Positions 16,487 through 25,074 of a stretch of 64,000 bases of DNA are shown in pieces. The notes below the pieces were generated by a model. It had not been told where the DNA came from and ran no database searches. It worked only from the letters and a program-made list of their open reading frames with translations. Positions within the stretch are counted from its first letter, which is position 1. The number at the start of each line of letters is the position of its first letter. The position numbers and the translations under genes were made by a program. The stretch spans positions 372,001-436,000 of the forward strand of contig NZ_SMLH01000002.1 in the NCBI RefSeq assembly GCF_004349315.1, given 5' to 3'. The stretch is from Flavobacterium ranwuense (GTDB taxonomy: Bacteria; Bacteroidota; Bacteroidia; Flavobacteriales; Flavobacteriaceae).

Positions 16487-17053
16487 TTATTTTCGTTTCA
16501 TTCTCTTTGGTCCATACCAGAGCCAGAACCCTGTGATGGAAAATATCAAAAGTGCCAGTCCCATGACGGTTGTGTAAACCAATTTAATGAGTCCATTGCC
16601 AGTCTTGAAATAATCGTCAAGAATTGATCCATCGTGTACCTTTTCAATAAAGTCAGACCGTCTTCTTTCAATATGTAATAATTGCCCTGTTGCCCCATCA
16701 AGTTGAATTCCCCAAAAGTTTTCGGCAAAAATAAATTTCACCATTCCTTTATCTTTTTTAATCTCAATTCGTTCTAGTTCCAGCGTTGATTCTTTTGAAA
16801 CAGAGTCTAGTAAAATTTTGCAAGCGTTTTTGTGTAAACTGTCAATAGGAAGCCAGTCTTTTAAATGTATTGAAGTTCCTTGAAATGATTTTGATTGCAG
16901 CAACCCGCCACTATTTTTTTTCCAACCTAATAGAATTCCTGTCACGGAAACAAAAAAGAAAAAAATAAATAAAAAAGCTCCAGTTGTTCGGTGAATTTTC
17001 CTGAATACCCTGAGCAATTTGGCTTGTTGTTTCCTTTGATTATTTTCGGTCAT
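16487..17053 (-). CDS. PepSY-associated transmembrane protein
   Basis: The 188-residue protein has two strong membrane helices, at about residues 23-45 (TGAFLFIFFFFVSVTGILLGW) and 157-180 (LVYTTVMGLALLIFSITGFWLWYG). A PepSY-like periplasmic segment lies between them (IQLDGATGQLLHIERRR). The histidines in KIHRTTG before helix 1 and KVHDGSIL before helix 2 are typical of PepSY_TM proteins, which are usually tied to iron or flavin-linked reduction near siderophore and heme receptors. It lies 233 bases downstream of the TonB receptor on the same strand, consistent with an iron-related role for that locus. The role is inferred. Confidence 0.7.
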   Translation of the reverse strand: MTENNQRKQQAKLLRVFRKIHRTTGAFLFIFFFFVSVTGILLGWKKNSGGLLQSKSFQGTSIHLKDWLPIDSLHKNACKILLDSVSKESTLELERIEIKKDKGMVKFIFAENFWGIQLDGATGQLLHIERRRSDFIEKVHDGSILDDYFKTGNGLIKLVYTTVMGLALLIFSITGFWLWYGPKRMKRK

Positions 17054-17286: not shown

Positions 17287-19824
17287 TTAAAAATTAACCC
17301 TAAAACTTATATTTGGCGTTAAGCCAAGCGATTTATTATCTACTTGAATAGCATCATTCGAGTCATTTGGATTGACTTTATAATAGCGATTGATAAGATT
17401 ATCCTGATTAGTAGCGTTAATGACACCGGCAGTAAACGAAGCTTTAATAGATTGTGACAGGTTGAAATTGTAATTTAAAGAAGCGTCTAAACGCATGAAA
17501 TCATCTAAGTTTTCATGGTTTGGACAATCATAATTTACCATGGTATTATTTCCGTTTTGTACGGTTTCATTTCCCTCAATTGGTTTTGTATACGGCTGCC
17601 CATTTCTCCAAACACCGCCAACAGCTATTTTTAGATTTTTAAGAATATCGTAATAAAAACCAAGCGATACGGAATGCCTTATATCTACATTATTAGGAAA
17701 GGTTGAAGGTGTAAAAGTATCAAATTCATAGTCATTTGTACTGAAAGTATAGCTTACCCAAACGCTATATTGACGCGCTGTTTTATTGGCTAAAAATTCA
17801 AAACCTTTAGCAGTGTAACTTCCATTCGCGTTAGTAAACTGAAAGCTGTTATAGAAACCCTGATTGGAAGCTGTAATGCCGTCAACAATTTTATAAAAAC
17901 CTGTAGCTTCTACATTTAGTTTGTTTTGATTGAATTCCACACCAAAAGAACCTTGTTTACTCGTTGCAATGGGAATGTCTTTATCGTTTACTAAAACCCA
18001 ACGCCTTTTTTCGACACCTAAAAAATCATCCTCAAAATCCACTATTTGAGTAGTAGATTGGTTTTTGAATTCCCCTTCTAATTTTAAAGCAAATTGATCT
18101 GATAGTTTTTGTCGAATGTTTATTCTTGGCTCGACCAAAAACTTTTCGAATTTTTGAAAATAATTCAAACGCAATCCAACTCTCAAATACGTGTTGTTTT
18201 TATTGTATTCGATTTCAGAAAATAAGGCGTGATTCAATAAAACATCTTTTTTAGTGCTGGAGTAAAACGGAGCACTAACGGTGGTTTGGTTTAACATCCC
18301 CGTTTCGTTGAATTGGTAGCCAAACAAGAAATTTAAGTTGTCATTAGTTTTGTAATACGTATTGAGTTTAGCTCCAGTTTCCATCACTTCATTGGCTTCA
18401 GTTAAGCGCTGATCCGTTTCTACTCTGTAATCGGTAGCATCAATATTGTATCTGGAAAAGTAAGTGATGAAGTTTGAGCTTAATTTTGGATTCCATTGTG
18501 CTTTCCAACTTCCTCCGTAACCCATGTTTTTCTGGGATAAATTACTGGTTTTAGGTTGGGTTTCATTTGAATTTGTAATGCGGCTTTCTGAATAATCCAA
18601 TGCATTATTAATACCAATAATATTCGCTCTAAATTGATGTTTTTCATTTAAATCGAAAAGTAATTTAGCGGTATAATCATAAAAGTAAAAATCAGAAGAC
18701 GTATTATTCTGGTCACTATCCGCATTGATTTCAGTGTCTTGAAAACTACGATCAAAGTATTTAGTGTACGTAGGAGATTTAAACAAATCAGTAATAGAAC
18801 GACGTCCTGAAATATGAAGCTCTATTTTTTTAGTTATTGGAATTTCTAAAAAGGCATCGGCACTAATAGAGTTAATTCCTGCGCCACCAGAAAAGGCATT
18901 GGTGACCAGATCTTTCGTATACATATTGATACTACTGGAAACGCCATCGCTGTATTCAGCACTTGTTCCGTTTTTACTGACGATAACTTTATTGGTAAGA
19001 TTAGGATTGTAAGCGGATATTAACCCGAAGAAATGACCGGAATGATACATTTTGATATTATCCCAAAGCACTAAATTCTGATCGTTAGTCCCACCACGTA
19101 CGTTGATATTAGCAATGCTTTCATTGGTACTTTCCACACCGGGAAGCGCTTGAACAGATTGCAAAATGTCGGGTTCTATTAATCCGGGAAGAATCCCGAA
19201 TTTTTTAGTATTTAAAACAGTGCTTCCATCTAGGTATTTCTGTAATCCGGGCGTTAAATAGACATTTATCAGAACCTGATTCAATTCTTCATTTTTTGTT
19301 GAAAGAACAATTTCCTTGCAATTATTTTGTGCAGAAAACAATTCGTTAGCAGAAAACTGTCTGGATTCAAAACCCAAATAAGAAACGGTCAACGTTGCAG
19401 TTATTGGAATATTTTGCAGGTTAAATGTGCCGTTTTTATCGGTTATTGTACTTCTTCCGATGTTATTTACAAGTACTGAAGCGCCAACCAAACGAGATTT
19501 TTTTTCATCAGAAAAAACAATGCCACAAACGGATATTGTTTTGTTTAGCACTGAAACAGTAACATATCGATTGTCTAGAGCTTTGAAATTTAAAAGCGTT
19601 TTCGAGTTTAGATAATCAATTGTTTCTTGTAATGTAAAAGAAGTATTTGGTTGCTCAATTGCAGTATTTGCAACATCTTCAACGGCATACGAAAACTTGA
19701 TGTTGAATTGTTTTTCGAGGGAAATAATAACCTCACTTAAAGGTGTTTTTTTAGTTGTATTTTGTCCGTAACAAATACTGCCAATACAAAGTAACAGAGA
19801 AATCAGCCATTTATTTAACACCAT
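17287..19824 (-). CDS. TonB-dependent outer-membrane receptor with signalling (STN) domain
   Basis: From the ATG at 19824 the protein has 845 residues. It has a signal peptide (ending CYGQ), an STN domain (about residues 25-90, LSEVIISLEKQFNIKFSY), a carboxypeptidase-regulatory-like domain (about 100-180), a TonB plug (about 205-320, with GGTNDQNLVLWDN) and a beta-barrel ending in RVNF. An in-frame ATG ten codons earlier exists, but the later start gives a cleaner signal peptide. It overlaps the fecR end by 14 bases. The STN domain and the order sigma-fecR-receptor mark it as a FecA-type transducer that both imports a ligand and signals to FecR. The ligand is unknown; the PepSY neighbour hints at iron. 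Confidence 0.88.
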   Translation of the reverse strand: MVLNKWLISLLLCIGSICYGQNTTKKTPLSEVIISLEKQFNIKFSYAVEDVANTAIEQPNTSFTLQETIDYLNSKTLLNFKALDNRYVTVSVLNKTISVCGIVFSDEKKSRLVGASVLVNNIGRSTITDKNGTFNLQNIPITATLTVSYLGFESRQFSANELFSAQNNCKEIVLSTKNEELNQVLINVYLTPGLQKYLDGSTVLNTKKFGILPGLIEPDILQSVQALPGVESTNESIANINVRGGTNDQNLVLWDNIKMYHSGHFFGLISAYNPNLTNKVIVSKNGTSAEYSDGVSSSINMYTKDLVTNAFSGGAGINSISADAFLEIPITKKIELHISGRRSITDLFKSPTYTKYFDRSFQDTEINADSDQNNTSSDFYFYDYTAKLLFDLNEKHQFRANIIGINNALDYSESRITNSNETQPKTSNLSQKNMGYGGSWKAQWNPKLSSNFITYFSRYNIDATDYRVETDQRLTEANEVMETGAKLNTYYKTNDNLNFLFGYQFNETGMLNQTTVSAPFYSSTKKDVLLNHALFSEIEYNKNNTYLRVGLRLNYFQKFEKFLVEPRINIRQKLSDQFALKLEGEFKNQSTTQIVDFEDDFLGVEKRRWVLVNDKDIPIATSKQGSFGVEFNQNKLNVEATGFYKIVDGITASNQGFYNSFQFTNANGSYTAKGFEFLANKTARQYSVWVSYTFSTNDYEFDTFTPSTFPNNVDIRHSVSLGFYYDILKNLKIAVGGVWRNGQPYTKPIEGNETVQNGNNTMVNYDCPNHENLDDFMRLDASLNYNFNLSQSIKASFTAGVINATNQDNLINRYYKVNPNDSNDAIQVDNKSLGLTPNISFRVNF

Positions 19825-20725
19825 AGTTGTAAAATATAATGTTTTTGCCTTCAATCCTGTAACTTAATTTAAGCGGAATTGTAACCGCTTGAAGCGCTAT
19901 TCCTTTATCAGTATGTGTAAAAGTTCCGGTAAAGAGTTTTGAAGTGTCAACGCCTTCAACTTTAATTTTCATATCGTATTGACGCTCTAATTCTGCAATA
20001 ACCTGATCTAAAGGAATTTTATTAAAGCTTGATTCTTGTTGAATCCACGAAGGGTTTTCGGCATTAAAATCTTCAACATTTTCGATAATGCCATTTATAA
20101 CTCGGAATGTTTTTCCGGGAGGCAATTTAATGGTTTCGTTATTATACGTTACACTCACCAAACCTTCGTAACAATGAACCTCAAAATAGTTTTTGCGTTC
20201 TTTTACGTTAAATTGTGTCCCTAAAACGGTAACGACTCCCGCAGTTGTGTTTACACTAAAAGTTTGGCCTTTCTGAACTTTGAAAAAAGCTTCTCCTTCT
20301 AAAGTTAAAGCTCTTTTATCAGCCCATTTTTTTTCGTTAAAACTTAATTTTGAAGCGGAGTTTAATATTACTTCAGAATTATCAGGAAGCGTAACTGCTT
20401 TTGTTTGCGCTATTTGAGTTTCAAAAGATGTAATGTTGTTAAAAAATAAGAAATAAGTTGAGGTTAACATAACAACTAGAACAGCAGCAACTCTATAGAA
20501 TGCGTTAACGTTTAAAGTTCTTACTTTTGTTTTCTTTTTAGAATGGTTTCTGGCTTTAAAAGCTTCTAAAGCAGCGTGGGCATCTACTTTTGGGGTTTCC
20601 AGTTGTGATGCATAATGAGTAATTTTTTCAAGTGTTTGCAAATCTTCAGATTGTTTTAAATCCTCAATTTCTTTGCTTGAAAGCTCATTATTTAACCATT
20701 TTAATATCTCTTTTTCGTTTTTCAT
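19811..20725 (-). CDS. FecR-family anti-sigma regulator
   Basis: The 304-residue inner-membrane protein passes the receptor signal to an ECF sigma factor. A cytoplasmic N-terminal helical segment (1-75) is followed by one membrane helix (about 78-96, FYRVAAVLVVMLTSTYFLFF). A FecR domain follows (about 105-200, with AVTLPDNSEVILNSASKLSF and GEAFFKVQ). The C-terminal domain (about 230-300, LDQVIAELERQYDMKI) resembles the STN/DUF4974 fold. It lies 61 bases after the sigma gene, and the bipartite element at 20744-20771 sits in that gap, so it has its own promoter. Its end overlaps the receptor start. Confidence 0.92.
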   Translation of the reverse strand: MKNEKEILKWLNNELSSKEIEDLKQSEDLQTLEKITHYASQLETPKVDAHAALEAFKARNHSKKKTKVRTLNVNAFYRVAAVLVVMLTSTYFLFFNNITSFETQIAQTKAVTLPDNSEVILNSASKLSFNEKKWADKRALTLEGEAFFKVQKGQTFSVNTTAGVVTVLGTQFNVKERKNYFEVHCYEGLVSVTYNNETIKLPPGKTFRVINGIIENVEDFNAENPSWIQQESSFNKIPLDQVIAELERQYDMKIKVEGVDTSKLFTGTFTHTDKGIALQAVTIPLKLSYRIEGKNIIFYNYGVK

Positions 20726-20743
20726 TTTATATCTCTATGTTTA

Positions 20744-20771
20744 TAAGACAACTAACTTTTAAATTACCCTA
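20744..20771 (-). promoter_or_regulatory. Bipartite ECF-type promoter in front of fecR
   Basis: On the minus strand the sequence is TAGGGTAA, nine bases, then TAGTTGTCTTA, ending 18 bases before the fecR ATG. The same two blocks with the same spacing occur at 21472-21499 on the plus strand. It does not resemble the housekeeping TTG/TAnnTTTG promoter. I infer that the adjacent ECF sigma factor reads it. Confidence 0.7.
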
Positions 20772-20786
20772 CAGCTAAATGACTAA

Positions 20787-21302
20787 TTAAATATTTTCTA
20801 TTTGGGCTCTTAACAGTTGCAACGCTCCAGACATTCTTTTTTCTACGGTTTTTTGAGAAATATTGAGTAACTCAGCGATTTCCCTGTATTTTTTTCCATC
20901 TATTCGATTCAATAAAAATACTTCTCGCTGTGCTTCACTTAATGATGCGATTGCTTTGGTGAGTTTTTGTTTGAATTCTTCTTCTTCGAATAAATATTCG
21001 GGACTTTGATTATTTGTATCTAAGTTAGGCGCATCTTTGGCGTACCTCAATACTACTTTTTGATGTTTTATGTTATTTAGAAATAAATTATTAATGCTGG
21101 TAAACAAGTACGTTTTGACCTTACTAAAGTCAATTTTGGAACAATTCTCCCAAATTTTTGTAAACGCATCTTGTACCAAATCTAATGCAGCTTCATCATC
21201 ACCACATTTGTAATACGCAAAATTATTTGCTGATTGCACGTGCTTTAAGTAAAAGTCTCTAAAGTGATTTTCGTCGCAAAGTGTACTGTTTTCGTCGCTC
21301 AT
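20787..21302 (-). CDS. ECF RNA polymerase sigma factor (FecI-like)
   Basis: The 171-residue protein has sigma region 2 at about residues 10-75 (FAYYKCGDDEAALDLVQDAFTKIW) and region 4 at about 110-165 (LSEAQREVFLLNRIDGKKYREIAELLNISQKTVEKR), with the linker expected for an ECF factor. It is the first gene of the sigma-fecR-receptor set. The shared bipartite element lies after it, before fecR, and not in front of the sigma gene itself. The sigma factor is therefore probably made from a separate promoter and drives the other two genes. Confidence 0.93.
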   Translation of the reverse strand: MSDENSTLCDENHFRDFYLKHVQSANNFAYYKCGDDEAALDLVQDAFTKIWENCSKIDFSKVKTYLFTSINNLFLNNIKHQKVVLRYAKDAPNLDTNNQSPEYLFEEEEFKQKLTKAIASLSEAQREVFLLNRIDGKKYREIAELLNISQKTVEKRMSGALQLLRAQIENI

Positions 21303-21471
21303 TGAGTATTAATTCATTTTTTGTAGGTTGTAAATGTAAAATATTTTTTCAAAAAGCAGTTGAGTAAATTATAATTGCTTTTTTATGAAAAATAGTTTAA
21401 AATTTAATTTGTTGATTTGTAGTGTTTTATGAATTTATTTGTGAAATTTTATATTTTTTTTAAAATTTTGA

Positions 21472-21499
21472 TAGGGTAAAAATAAACGTAGTTGTCTTA
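21472..21499 (+). promoter_or_regulatory. Bipartite ECF-type promoter in front of the repeat lipoprotein
   Basis: TAGGGTAA, nine bases and TAGTTGTCTTA are identical in both blocks and in spacing to the element before fecR, but on the opposite strand. It ends 61 bases before the ATG at 21561. This places the lipoprotein gene in the same predicted sigma regulon. Confidence 0.7.
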
Positions 21500-21560
21500 C
21501 TAATAGAAAGGCGCTAAAAACATCGCTTGTAAATATAAAAAAAACATTAAATTTGAAATT

Positions 21561-22604
21561 ATGAAAAAGTTAAAAATTGTTACAGGAATTGCATTGATGG
21601 CTATCTTAAGTTTTACCTCATGCCAAAGTGAAGTAGATGAGGTAGAAGGAGAAAATCCAAATACCAATTCGGCTAATTCAACTACAACAAATAATCTAAA
21701 ACGTACTTCGATGCACGATGGATCATTTGATGATTTCTTGGATGGAGCATCATGTTCATCAATCATATTACCAATTACCGCTAAAGTAAATGGAGTTCAG
21801 GTTTCCATTGTTAGTCAATTGGATTACCAACAAGTTATTAGCATTTTGGGACAGTCTAATAATGACCAAGATTCAGTAATATTACAATTTCCTTTAAAAA
21901 TTAAATCAAGTAATTATACAGAGGTTGCCGTTGCTAATCAAACGGAGTATAATGCTATTCTTAATGCGTGTACAGCAGCGGAAGCTTCGGGTCAAGATGC
22001 TATTTCTTCTGTAAATATCAGCTTCCCAATTACAATTTTTACGTATAATTTAAGTTTTCAACAAACAGGAAGTGTTGTCATCACATCCGAACAACAATTA
22101 TATACGTATATGTCTAATGTAAGCAGCACAGAATTATTTTCGGTAAACTATCCGATTTCAGTGAAAATTGCGGATGGAACAAAAACAACTGTTTCAAGTG
22201 ATGCTGAATTGCAAGCAGCTATTACTGCATCTTTAAAAACTGAAGCAACGATGGCAGAAGCAGTTCAAAATGGAAAAAAATTAGAAACGATTTTGGTGAA
22301 CGGTAAGTTTAAAGTAGATTCTTATGTAAATGCAGGAGTTAATTCAGCAAACAACTATTCTGGGTATGCAATAGATTTCGCAAATAATTTATCGGTAACA
22401 GCCATGAATCAATTGAATACAACAGTAAATGGTACCTATGCGGTAAGCTCGGAATTAAATGTTTTTCTAAAACTAAATTTTTCAGGTAATGCTTCGTTTA
22501 CTTTATTGAATAATACTTGGAAAGTAACAAGTTTTACTGCTTCGACAATCACATTGCAAAGTAAGACTGATGCTGCAGTAATATTAGTATTGAAACAAAT
22601 ATAG
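21561..22604 (+). CDS. Repeat-containing lipoprotein, unknown function
   Basis: I do not recognise a named family for this 347-residue protein. It has a lipoprotein signal (FTSC, Cys21) and a polar Asn/Thr linker to residue 48. Four degenerate repeats follow at about 66-99, 104-138, 148-185 and 190-225. Each repeat runs beta strand 'I.FPI.I', a loop, then 'V.S..EL...I'. The last 110 residues (about 240-347) form a beta-rich domain reminiscent of Bacteroidota lipocalin-like domains (GTYAVSSELNVFLKLNF, NTWKVTSF). It is divergent from the sigma gene and carries the same promoter element as fecR. A surface or periplasmic ligand-binding role is a reasonable inference. Confidence 0.7.
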   Translation: MKKLKIVTGIALMAILSFTSCQSEVDEVEGENPNTNSANSTTTNNLKRTSMHDGSFDDFLDGASCSSIILPITAKVNGVQVSIVSQLDYQQVISILGQSNNDQDSVILQFPLKIKSSNYTEVAVANQTEYNAILNACTAAEASGQDAISSVNISFPITIFTYNLSFQQTGSVVITSEQQLYTYMSNVSSTELFSVNYPISVKIADGTKTTVSSDAELQAAITASLKTEATMAEAVQNGKKLETILVNGKFKVDSYVNAGVNSANNYSGYAIDFANNLSVTAMNQLNTTVNGTYAVSSELNVFLKLNFSGNASFTLLNNTWKVTSFTASTITLQSKTDAAVILVLKQI

Positions 22605-22631: not shown

Positions 22632-22667
22632 AAAGAACAGCTACTAAACATATTGTAGCTGTTCTTT
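22632..22667 (+). terminator. Hairpin between the lipoprotein and metalloprotease genes
   Basis: A perfect 13-base stem AAAGAACAGCTAC / GTAGCTGTTCTTT surrounds a 10-base loop and is followed by TTTAATATAA. It should end or attenuate the lipoprotein transcript before the next gene. Confidence 0.75.
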
Positions 22668-22694: not shown

Positions 22695-23471
22695 ATGAAA
22701 AAAGTAATTACTCTACTCACTATAGGTTTGTTCCTATTAGTGATTTCTTGTTCAAAAGAAGATGATCCATTAGATAACTCAATTGCAGTAAATCCTAATA
22801 CAAATAAACAGCAAACTGGAAGTTCTTCTAACGATTTATTATCAGATAAAAAGTTCAAGAGTATGGTTATTGAAGTGGTGTACGTGGCCGGTTTTGAGCC
22901 AAGCAGTACAACAATTAATAATTTTGTAAGCTTTCTTACTGCAAGAACATATAAGCCAAACGGTATTAGTGTTATAAAACGTTCTATACCATCACCAGGG
23001 AATTCACCTTACACAGATGCAGAGATTGTAACTATTGAAGATGCTAACAGAACAAAATATAACACTTCTGATGTAATAGCGGTTTGGGCATTTTTTGCAG
23101 ATGGGAAATCTTCAAAAGATACTGATACAGGGGTTATCCTAGGAACGGCTTACAGAAATACTTCTTTTGTTATTTTCGAACAAACTATTCAAGGTTTGAG
23201 CGATAGTCCAGTTGAACCCAGTAGAAGTTTGTTAGAAACAACAGTAATTACACATGAATTTGGACATATATTAGGATTGACTAACCTTGGTACAGCCTTG
23301 CAAAGCAATCACGAAGATGCAGCGCATCCAAAACATTGTATTGAAAAAACCTGTTTAATGTATTGGTCATCCGAAACCGGAAGCGGTATTGGAAATATGG
23401 TTTCGGGTGGTTCAGCACCACAATTAGATGCGCAATGTATAGCAGATCTTCGTGCCAATGGAGGGAAATAA
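22695..23471 (+). CDS. Zinc metalloprotease-like lipoprotein
   Basis: The 258-residue protein has a lipoprotein signal (VISC, Cys19). A zinc-binding HEFGHILGL motif starts at residue 187, with candidate third ligands in NHEDAAHPKHC (206-215) and a methionine turn in CLMYW (220-224). This HExxHxxG plus Met-turn layout is metzincin-like, and the cysteines at 215 and 220 could form a disulfide. It should act outside the inner membrane. It lies 90 bases after the repeat lipoprotein, beyond a hairpin, and 26 bases before the PorT-like gene. The substrate is unknown; processing of a neighbour's surface protein is one possibility. Confidence 0.78.
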   Translation: MKKVITLLTIGLFLLVISCSKEDDPLDNSIAVNPNTNKQQTGSSSNDLLSDKKFKSMVIEVVYVAGFEPSSTTINNFVSFLTARTYKPNGISVIKRSIPSPGNSPYTDAEIVTIEDANRTKYNTSDVIAVWAFFADGKSSKDTDTGVILGTAYRNTSFVIFEQTIQGLSDSPVEPSRSLLETTVITHEFGHILGLTNLGTALQSNHEDAAHPKHCIEKTCLMYWSSETGSGIGNMVSGGSAPQLDAQCIADLRANGGK

Positions 23472-23497: not shown

Positions 23498-24088
23498 ATG
23501 AAACAAATGAAATCAAAATTTTTAGCAATAGCTTTATTTATTGGAATAGGCTCAACAATGAATGCTCAGGACAGTGCTATTCCCAAATCGAATGGAGGAA
23601 TAAAAGGAGGTTATAATTTAGCTGCAGTAAGTTTTGACGGAGATGGAGAAACAGAACAACGACACGGTTTTCATATAGGAGTTTATGGCGAGTCATTTAT
23701 TAGCGAAAGCTTTTCTATACAACCTGAATTGATGTATTCTCAACAAGGATACGAAATAACAAATAGCAGTGGGACTTTTACGCAAAAATTAGATTACATA
23801 AACTTACCAATAATGCTTAAAGCATATCCTTCTCAAAATTTCTTTTTGGAAGCGGGTCCACAAATTGGATTAGCAGTTTCTCATAAAGAAGAATATGATG
23901 GACTTTTTAGTGGTTCACAAGAGTATGAGCCTAATAATTTTGATTGGGGAATAAACTTTGGAGGAGGGTTTAAAACCGATTCTGGTATTAGTTTAGGAGT
24001 GCGTTATCATTTAGGTTTAGGAGATTTATATGATGACGGCAAAGCACAAAACAGAGTGCTACAATTTTCATTAGGGTTTGATTTATAA
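23498..24088 (+). CDS. PorT-like outer-membrane beta-barrel protein
   Basis: From the ATG at 23498 the product is 196 residues with a signal peptide (ending MNAQ). The alternating hydrophobic strands start GGIKGGYNLAAVSF and end NRVLQFSLGFDL, as in the PorT/outer-membrane beta-barrel domain family. An open frame extends further upstream inside the metalloprotease gene, but that extension has no signal peptide and is not credible. It is probably co-transcribed with the metalloprotease 26 bases upstream. The function is structural or unknown. Confidence 0.78.
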   Translation: MKQMKSKFLAIALFIGIGSTMNAQDSAIPKSNGGIKGGYNLAAVSFDGDGETEQRHGFHIGVYGESFISESFSIQPELMYSQQGYEITNSSGTFTQKLDYINLPIMLKAYPSQNFFLEAGPQIGLAVSHKEEYDGLFSGSQEYEPNNFDWGINFGGGFKTDSGISLGVRYHLGLGDLYDDGKAQNRVLQFSLGFDL

Positions 24089-24177: not shown

Positions 24178-25074
24178 TTAAAAAGACACTTTGTAAATTA
24201 TTCCTGCGGTGAATTTCCGAGTTAATCCGTCAGGGCGAACTTCTCGAACTACAAATGGTGTGGCTAAAGATAATTCGATGCTGTTTTGAGTATTAATAGC
24301 ATAGGCGCCAATTATATTTCCGTTTATTGTCAATCCATCAGAGTCTTTTATCGTTTCTCTTTTTCCAAAAGCATTTTCAAAACTATCTTCTCCTAAATGA
24401 TAAATAAATAATACATTGGGTTTGAAAGTGAATTTTTTATTAGAAGTTTGAAACGTATATGTAGTTCGAAACAATGCATCTGGTTTTCTTTCGAATAAAT
24501 TAGTGGAAGGAAAATCATCCGTATTGGAGAACTCCTTGAAGTACGAATTTTTATTGTTATTGAAGACGGGAATTTGGACAGCCGTATTAAAATCCCATTT
24601 TTTATAATTAAGATTCAATCCTGCAATCAAATCAAAAGTTCCTAAACTGGATTGATAATCTAAAGGAAGTGAAAACTCATTTATTTTAAGATTTGAACTC
24701 GTAAAAGGTATTTTAAAACCCAAAAGTGAACTCCATTGCGTATTCGTTTTTGGTTTCCAATTGTAATTCCCTATCAAATATGCATCACCAAAAGCGCCTC
24801 GTTTACCAAAACTTCCACTTGCAACGGAATATGTGATTTTAGAACTTAGCGCAAATCGTTCGTTAATAGTTCTGGTATAGCTGATATAAGGTGAAAAATA
24901 AATGACATCAGCTTCGCCTGCACCAAAAATACTTCCTACTTCAATTCCGTTTTTTAATTCTTTATCTGTAATTTGAAAACCGGTTCCAATGGAACAAATT
25001 CCGGCATCGCTACAACCTTGTGCAAAGGAGTTAGAGAACATTCCAATAGCGATGATTAGCAGTAGTTTTTTCAT
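24178..25074 (-). CDS. Exported outer-membrane beta-barrel protein with N-terminal Cys pair
   Basis: The 298-residue protein has a signal peptide (ending SFAQ). The mature end starts GCSDAGICSIG, giving a Cys-x5-Cys motif at the very N-terminus. The rest is a series of amphipathic strands (VIYFSPYISYTRTINERFAL, FDLIAGLNLNYKKW) ending KFTAGIIYKVSF, as expected for an outer-membrane barrel or transporter-like protein. It follows the DM13 lipoprotein by ten bases, so the two are an operon. The paired cysteines next to a presumed redox-related DM13 protein suggest a thiol or metal role, but this is inference. Confidence 0.65.
   Translation of the reverse strand: MKKLLLIIAIGMFSNSFAQGCSDAGICSIGTGFQITDKELKNGIEVGSIFGAGEADVIYFSPYISYTRTINERFALSSKITYSVASGSFGKRGAFGDAYLIGNYNWKPKTNTQWSSLLGFKIPFTSSNLKINEFSLPLDYQSSLGTFDLIAGLNLNYKKWDFNTAVQIPVFNNNKNSYFKEFSNTDDFPSTNLFERKPDALFRTTYTFQTSNKKFTFKPNVLFIYHLGEDSFENAFGKRETIKDSDGLTINGNIIGAYAINTQNSIELSLATPFVVREVRPDGLTRKFTAGIIYKVSF

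Follow-up and report, generated by a model that had tools for sequence, protein, structure and literature searches.

Duplicated promoter-like elements on both sides of an ECF sigma factor gene predict a surface-signalling regulon in Flavobacterium ranwuense

Two identical bipartite elements lie on either side of an ECF sigma factor gene in the 64-kb stretch of the Flavobacterium ranwuense genome analyzed here (the window, 64,000 nucleotides; Table 1). Comparative sequence data indicate that both are very probably promoters read by that sigma factor, which would drive fecR together with a TonB-dependent receptor gene, a divergent lipoprotein gene and an unlinked gene for a His-rich protein, but not the sigma gene itself. 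The main inference of the original prediction is well supported by these data; two things appear to have escaped it, namely the unlinked third target and a probable housekeeping-like promoter of the lipoprotein gene in some relatives.

Table 1. Features of the module, with positions in the window unless another contig is named
Feature	Position	Strand	Evidence or remark
TonB-dependent outer-membrane receptor	17287..19854	-	Pfam CarbopepD_reg_2 and Plug above cut-off
FecR-type anti-sigma regulator	19811..20725	-	Pfam FecR 64.7 bits (cut-off 24); FecR_C 37.6 (cut-off 24.4)
Predicted ECF promoter element, copy 1 (TAGGGTAA ... TGTCTTA)	20744..20771	-	exact; 18 nt 5' of fecR start codon
ECF sigma factor gene, 171 aa	20787..21302	-	TIGR02985 133.8 bits (cut-off 126.4); Pfam Sigma70_r2 and r4_2 above cut-off
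TACATTTA box, weak candidate sigma promoter	21331..21338	-	one mismatch to housekeeping -7 element TAnnTTTG
Predicted ECF promoter element, copy 2	21472..21499	+	exact; 61 nt 5' of lipoprotein start codon
Housekeeping-like promoter TTG-N18-TAAATTTG	21527..21555	+	exact TAnnTTTG, TTG 18 bases upstream; possible second lipoprotein promoter
Divergent lipoprotein	21561..22604	+	successive alpha/beta segments, C-terminal lipocalin-like barrel (AlphaFold2 pLDDT 87.9, 40 aligned sequences)
Hairpin, 13-bp stem, attenuator or terminator	22632..22667	+	between lipoprotein and metalloprotease genes
Metzincin-type metalloprotease lipoprotein, possible cargo	22695..23471	+	HExxH in 45/45 relatives read
Outer-membrane beta-barrel protein, possible cargo	23498..24088	+	Pfam OMP_b-brl_2 87.1 bits (cut-off 27)
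His-/Cys-rich secreted protein, 155 aa	L003:985-1452, own genome contig C21	-	behind third element copy

The motif TAGGGTAA-N9-TAGTTGTCTTA, which had been noticed as an identical pair on opposite strands, was confirmed as exact in both places and has exactly these two matches in the window; no further match was found there at up to three mismatches, and none occurred in 100 dinucleotide shuffles of the window. Across the whole genome (3,735,422 bases), GGGTAA-N12-TTGTCTTA gave three exact matches and 34 with two mismatches but none with one, and the two-mismatch matches look like chance because the reversed control gave 76 matches in all at up to two mismatches. The conserved form of the element, TAGGGTAA-N13-TGTCTTA, returned the same three exact sites from the 3.7-Mb genome, none at one mismatch and three at two. 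Many random copies in a genome scan had been named as grounds for giving up the promoter prediction; the scan found three copies only, the third lying upstream of a secreted-protein gene.

In the comparative alignment the T and A preceding GGG are 96-100% conserved, and the two boxes carry 1.73-1.91 bits per position (79 unique fecR-side and 77 unique lipoprotein-side sites), with 0.75 bits (fecR side) and 0.68 bits (lipoprotein side) in the spacer and 0.70-0.91 in the flanks. The TAG that stands before TTGTCTTA in the motif as first described is partly conserved (T 58-75%, A 57-87%, G 73-80%), and the bases preceding GTC vary in other genera (TTGTCTTA, GTGTCTTA, GGGTCTTA), so that the core is better written as TAGGGTAA-N14-GTCTTA. 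The GTC fits the ECF -10 element as described in the available text of two papers (PMC6411747; PMC6372665). An A at index 33, counted from the first G, is kept in 99% of the unique fecR-side and 97% of the unique lipoprotein-side sites, which suggests transcription starts at 20736 (- strand) and 21507 (+ strand); these would leave leaders of 11 nt for fecR and 54 nt for the lipoprotein.

The repeat can also be read as RNA, since UAGGGUAA pairs with UUGUCUUA with three G-U wobbles, all eight positions being pairable, and ViennaRNA folds the stretch between sigma and fecR into that stem. The element would then be a structure of the 5' leader and not a promoter. Transcription would in that case have to begin further upstream, but only 18 nt separate the fecR copy from the start codon. 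The 126 unique sites with C in the -10 core (C-type) offer a single two-sided compensatory case over the eight pairs and uncompensated breaks in up to 36 sites, and the 75 unique T-type sites of a paralogous family described below offer nine two-sided cases, in the two innermost pairs only, with up to 34 breaks. With covariation almost nil, we reject the hairpin reading, which we regard as extremely improbable, and continue to read the two copies as promoters.

The distribution of the element follows that of the sigma gene. Among 249 genomes of Flavobacterium, 28 carry a sigma orthologue (at least 70% identity; the next listed matches in the genus reach 58% at most and were left out of the count). 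The exact element occurs in 32 of the 249, comprising all 28 with the orthologue and 4 of the 221 without it (Fisher p = 4e-33, uncorrected for shared ancestry, related genomes being dependent), which supports the prediction that this sigma factor reads both copies. The four sigma-less genomes hold one copy each, a level close to chance given 22 matches of the reversed pattern across the 249. As targets these four matches were rejected: the ORFs within 400 nt downstream (300, 187 and 64 aa; none in the fourth) have by eye no likeness to the known targets. A wider search of the 28 sigma-bearing genomes at one mismatch returned, besides the known sites, those of paralogous sigma factors and scattered single matches.

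Within the orthologous loci of the genus (window counted), 25 of the 28 fecR-side sites are exact and all 28 lie within three mismatches (G147 having three), 17-20 nt before fecR, while the lipoprotein-side site is exact in 21 and within two mismatches in all of the 26 loci that hold the lipoprotein. The order sigma-fecR-receptor is kept in the 27 other genus loci read, and the lipoprotein is divergent in all of these but two, both cut by a contig end; it adjoins the module in every C-type locus read unless a contig end intervenes. For other genera, 349 genomes of the family were searched, and of the 32 sigma matches of at least 63% besides the window's own, the loci of the 29 best were taken (G256, G372 and G491 were left out); the element stands within two mismatches on both sides in 29/29. 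The 47 named loci with a lipoprotein relative cover many Flavobacterium species, F. glaciei, F. frigoris and F. omnivorum among them and several with cold-habitat names, as well as Snuella, Flavivirga, Flaviramulus, Wocania, Algibacter, Aestuariivivens and Wenyingzhuangia, and the lipoprotein-side element is within three mismatches in all 46 named loci holding the sigma gene, the Wenyingzhuangia site (L245) having three. Over all C-type loci the 14 motif bases are exact in 66/103 fecR-side and 74/101 lipoprotein-side sites and within two mismatches in 101/103 and 100/101, numbers that count some genomes twice (79 and 77 unique sites) and that, because of shared ancestry, are not independent events. 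The 171 sigma loci read in all likewise include repeat genomes, with 131 unique sigma proteins.

Conservation by itself cannot separate a promoter from an operator, and the element could belong to another activator or repressor that is co-inherited with the sigma locus. We consider this very unlikely, as the element tracks the sigma gene without exception among the 28 genomes, has two boxes at constant spacing and an ECF-like -10 GTC, and lies close to genes; moreover, the -10 master base and the specificity loop of the sigma factor differ together in the paralogue family, if in one event. The preferred reading remains that of promoters for the sigma factor encoded between them.

The sigma gene, as originally predicted, lacks the element and so would not amplify itself: the best match upstream of it in the window has five mismatches, and TAGGG-GTY is absent from the sense strand upstream of sigma in all 102 C-type loci. 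A two-mismatch match to GGGTAA-N12-TTGTYTTA does stand on that strand in five of the 102 (L238, L240, L255, L257 and L267), either by chance or as a weak extra site. For the sigma gene's own promoter we note a weak candidate box (Table 1), with no TTG 15-23 bases upstream of it, and a TAC-TTTAC stretch that is prominent in the alignment of sigma upstream regions. The same upstream region holds an imperfect inverted repeat in the window (21350-21385; AAAAAGCAATT / AACTGCTTTTT, - strand), maybe an operator or a hairpin, whose halves match better in some close relatives, L090 and L092 for example.

The proposed circuit would run as follows. Sigma would be made at a basal level from some other promoter and restrained by FecR; a ligand-bound receptor would then signal via FecR to give active sigma, which would start transcription about 8 bases downstream of GTCTTA at three targets, (1) fecR and the receptor, (2) the lipoprotein and perhaps the metalloprotease and barrel, and (3) the unlinked His-rich gene. 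Since fecR and the receptor would be under sigma and the sigma gene would not, activation would raise the sensor and the brake but not sigma, and the loop would be self-limiting and not autocatalytic. The receptor ORF as listed overlaps the end of fecR, so its real start is probably an internal ATG. Its residues 35-100 match FecR_C at 20.6 bits, below the cut-off of 24.4, and Pfam finds no STN domain in it at E 0.01. A PepSY gene at 16487 was discarded as a member of the module, adjoining the receptor in 2/27 genus loci only.

The placing of the divergent lipoprotein in the sigma factor's regulon, part of the original prediction, is supported by the comparative data above. Its Cys21 is invariant in 40 sequences, and its relatives beside paralogous sigma factors share 23-30% identity with it. 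Residues 231-347 of the model resemble lipocalin-like proteins, foremost 4zgf (Z 10.8; rmsd 2.9 over 104 aligned) and potempin E (8ehc; Z 10.6; rmsd 2.5 over 90 aligned), and the part before residue 231 is mostly barely covered by the structure comparison. The lipoprotein has no Pfam family at E 0.01, matches at E 0.07 and 0.55 being taken as noise, and a search of the PDB up to E 1 found nothing related to it in sequence.

Both elements are indeed unlike the housekeeping promoter, as had been claimed, but the lipoprotein gene also has a housekeeping-like promoter between its element and its start codon (Table 1), along with several further one-mismatch TAnnTTTG boxes upstream. Of the 47 named loci, which are related, 27 have a TAnnTTTG box no more than 45 nt from the lipoprotein start, as against 1.3% of shuffled sequences, and the lipoprotein may therefore have a basal, sigma-independent expression in part of the relatives. 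That the gene is mainly a housekeeping one, driven by TTG-N18-TAAATTTG with the ECF element adding conditional expression only, agrees with the exact -7 box, the TTG at 18 bases and the frequency of such boxes near the start. This reading is nevertheless rather unlikely in our estimation: the box is absent in 20/47 named loci, whereas the ECF element is found in 46/46, which makes the ECF element the more widely kept feature. We retain the ECF element as a promoter of the lipoprotein gene in our preferred reading.

The metalloprotease and the barrel had been suggested as further cargo of the circuit, and this is more weakly supported. The gene order is usually kept, with the beta-barrel gene in most, though not all, orthologous loci, but a strong stem (MFE -17 kcal/mol or lower) stands between the lipoprotein and metalloprotease genes in 21/26 loci, a raw count not set against shuffles, with stem sequences that differ. 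No element was found before the metalloprotease within the window. Because the hairpin separates them from the lipoprotein, we treat the two genes as uncertain members of the regulon. The genes at 24178 and 25085 were rejected as module members, their linkage not being constant across the genus loci. The AlphaFold2 model of the metalloprotease (pLDDT 75.2; residues 197-227 below 50) is nearest to the archaemetzincin 2x7m (Z 12.7, rmsd 3.5, 165 aligned), and Foldseek also lists fragilysins, ranked after archaemetzincin. The NCBIfam archaemetzincin model scores the protein at 18.3 bits, below its cut-off of 145, and from its modelled, metzincin-like fold the protein may work like archaemetzincin while lying outside that family. 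The neighbourhood of a lipocalin-like lipoprotein and a metzincin is reminiscent of the potempin-protease pairs in Tannerella.

The third exact copy of the element is unlinked to the module and stands 48 nt before the gene of a 155-residue secreted protein with a His/Cys cluster. This gene occurs in 19 of the 28 sigma-bearing genomes of the genus, being absent from the other nine, and in none of the 221 others. In all 19 the element lies 7-53 nt before the start codon as read, exact in 16 and, by comparison of positions, with one mismatch in G005, G074 and G179. The His-rich protein has no Pfam match above cut-off and is possibly a metal binder. A second, decayed match to it was seen in G147 (C15:36985-37368).

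Paralogous sigma factors of 43-58% identity often share the two-sided layout, and a divergently oriented relative of the lipoprotein (E up to 1e-3) was found in 31 of the 40 paralogous loci fetched. Their element, TAGGGTAA-N11-ATTGTTTTA (T-type), had matches at up to one mismatch in 20/20 genomes searched, eight of which were already known to carry it. It flanks sigma on both sides in 19 of the 20, and G183 has one site beside sigma and one about 3.6 kb away; a third match occurs in G006, G233 and G234. T-type near-copies about 3.5-4 kb from sigma (G233:C32:121451 and G183:C43:15346) are possible further targets. In 27/65 T-type loci (e.g., L171, L172 and L176) the TAG stop codon of sigma forms the first three bases of the TAGGG box. 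TAGGG-GTY stands on the sense strand upstream of sigma in four of the 65 (L145, L148, L151 and L175), and judging from this the sigma factor may amplify its own expression there. In three loci (L141:5548-6009, L143:4129-4596 and L148:3950-4414) the nearest divergent gene encodes a lipoprotein of about 155 aa that looks, by eye, like the C-terminal, lipocalin-like part without the rest.

The third base of the -10 core, in readable fecR-side sites, is C in 102/103 loci whose sigma factor has at least 60% identity and T in 64/64 below that value (four of the 171 sigma loci, L142, L153, L179 and L180, are without a fecR-side site). One position of the loop compared here, which we take from its position in the sequence to be the published L3 loop, is D/E/N in 102/102 C loci and P/S/T in 64/65 T loci. 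The exception, L274 (G378:C1), is an intermediate: its loop is of the C type, and its fecR-side site has T where the lipoprotein-side site has C. According to the available text of two papers, E. coli sigma-E and M. tuberculosis sigma-H and sigma-L take up the flipped -10 master base in a pocket formed by the L3 loop of sigma region 2, and swaps of the L3 loop are reported to swap specificity (PMC6372665; PMC6411747). On a tree of the 131 sigma proteins the base changed once, and because a single change is all that the tree needs, the association of base and loop has no statistical support; it is suggestive at the level of sequence. Both types occur in several genomes (G234, G162, G233 and G226), where cross-talk would therefore matter.

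Taken together, these observations would describe a family of modules in the Flavobacteriaceae with fixed wiring. Sigma would mostly not control itself, the anti-sigma and receptor genes would be served by an ECF promoter at the sigma stop codon or within about 20 nt after it, and a second copy of the promoter would serve a divergent lipoprotein gene, whose product typically has a lipocalin-like barrel; duplicated modules of one genome would be kept separate mainly by one -10 base, GTC or GTT, through differing L3 loops. This joint reading is a tentative one, to which we give slightly less than even weight. If it is true, the C and T modules are a natural case of orthogonal sigma-promoter pairs that evolved by loop change. 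The paired systems lend themselves to a natural test of the code that links loop to base in ECF sigma factors. The analysis has yielded from sequence alone a candidate ECF regulon, with its motif, predicted starts and three targets, and a wiring that predicts a self-limiting sensor. It also gives a genomic handle on the outputs of surface signalling, in this case a surface lipoprotein with a lipocalin-like barrel, a secreted protein rich in His and perhaps a metzincin.

Systems of this kind are known. As far as the literature searched shows, neither the regulon, nor a wiring that includes a divergent lipocalin-like lipoprotein, nor the C/T pair has been described; no description of the element was among the matches listed (open-licence PubMed Central; titles and abstract openings). 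The available part of a comparative study of Bacteroides calls the prediction of ECF-controlled promoters challenging and in need of mapped starts (PMC3878776), and the start-site map of Flavobacterium psychrophilum, in the text available, has SM6 as the one ECF class found and allows that other ECF-controlled starts may await discovery (PMC9723704). The SM6 promoters are likewise a Flavobacterium ECF promoter class, obtained from mapped starts, but as that text describes them they differ from the element here in a CGT -10 box, in serving type IX secretion genes and in having a sigma/anti-sigma pair among their targets (PMC9723704). Non-canonical, ECF-linked TGTT promoters are reported from Bacteroides thetaiotaomicron, in which TGTT at about -10 resembles the T-type sites of the paralogues; the available text of that study terms its SigW-1 motif non-significant and describes no GGGTAA box or two-sided layout (PMC12596196).

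With the ferric citrate system of Escherichia coli (FecI/FecR/FecA) the module shares the ECF sigma factor, the FecR regulator, whose gene is adjacent to that of sigma, and the TonB-dependent receptor. In E. coli, according to the part of the review available on that system, fecI and fecR are transcribed together from a sigma-70 promoter and the target of FecI is fecA, whereas here an element stands between sigma and fecR; the sigma gene is not autoregulated there, as is predicted here (PMC9249621). In the haem signalling system HasI/HasS/HasR of Serratia marcescens, hasS is induced by HasI, hasI does not regulate itself, and TTTACGGGTTT is common to the -35 regions of hasS and hasR (PMC9249621). 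As is predicted here, the sigma factor there transcribes the gene of its anti-sigma factor and not its own, and the sequence of the window has the corresponding arrangement, with an element between the sigma and anti-sigma genes and none before sigma. Unlike in HasI/HasS, the anti-sigma and receptor genes here lie behind one element, and a divergent lipoprotein and an unlinked His-rich protein are added as predicted targets; the GGGTTT within the Has sequence TTTACGGGTTT resembles the GGGTWW of the element described here.
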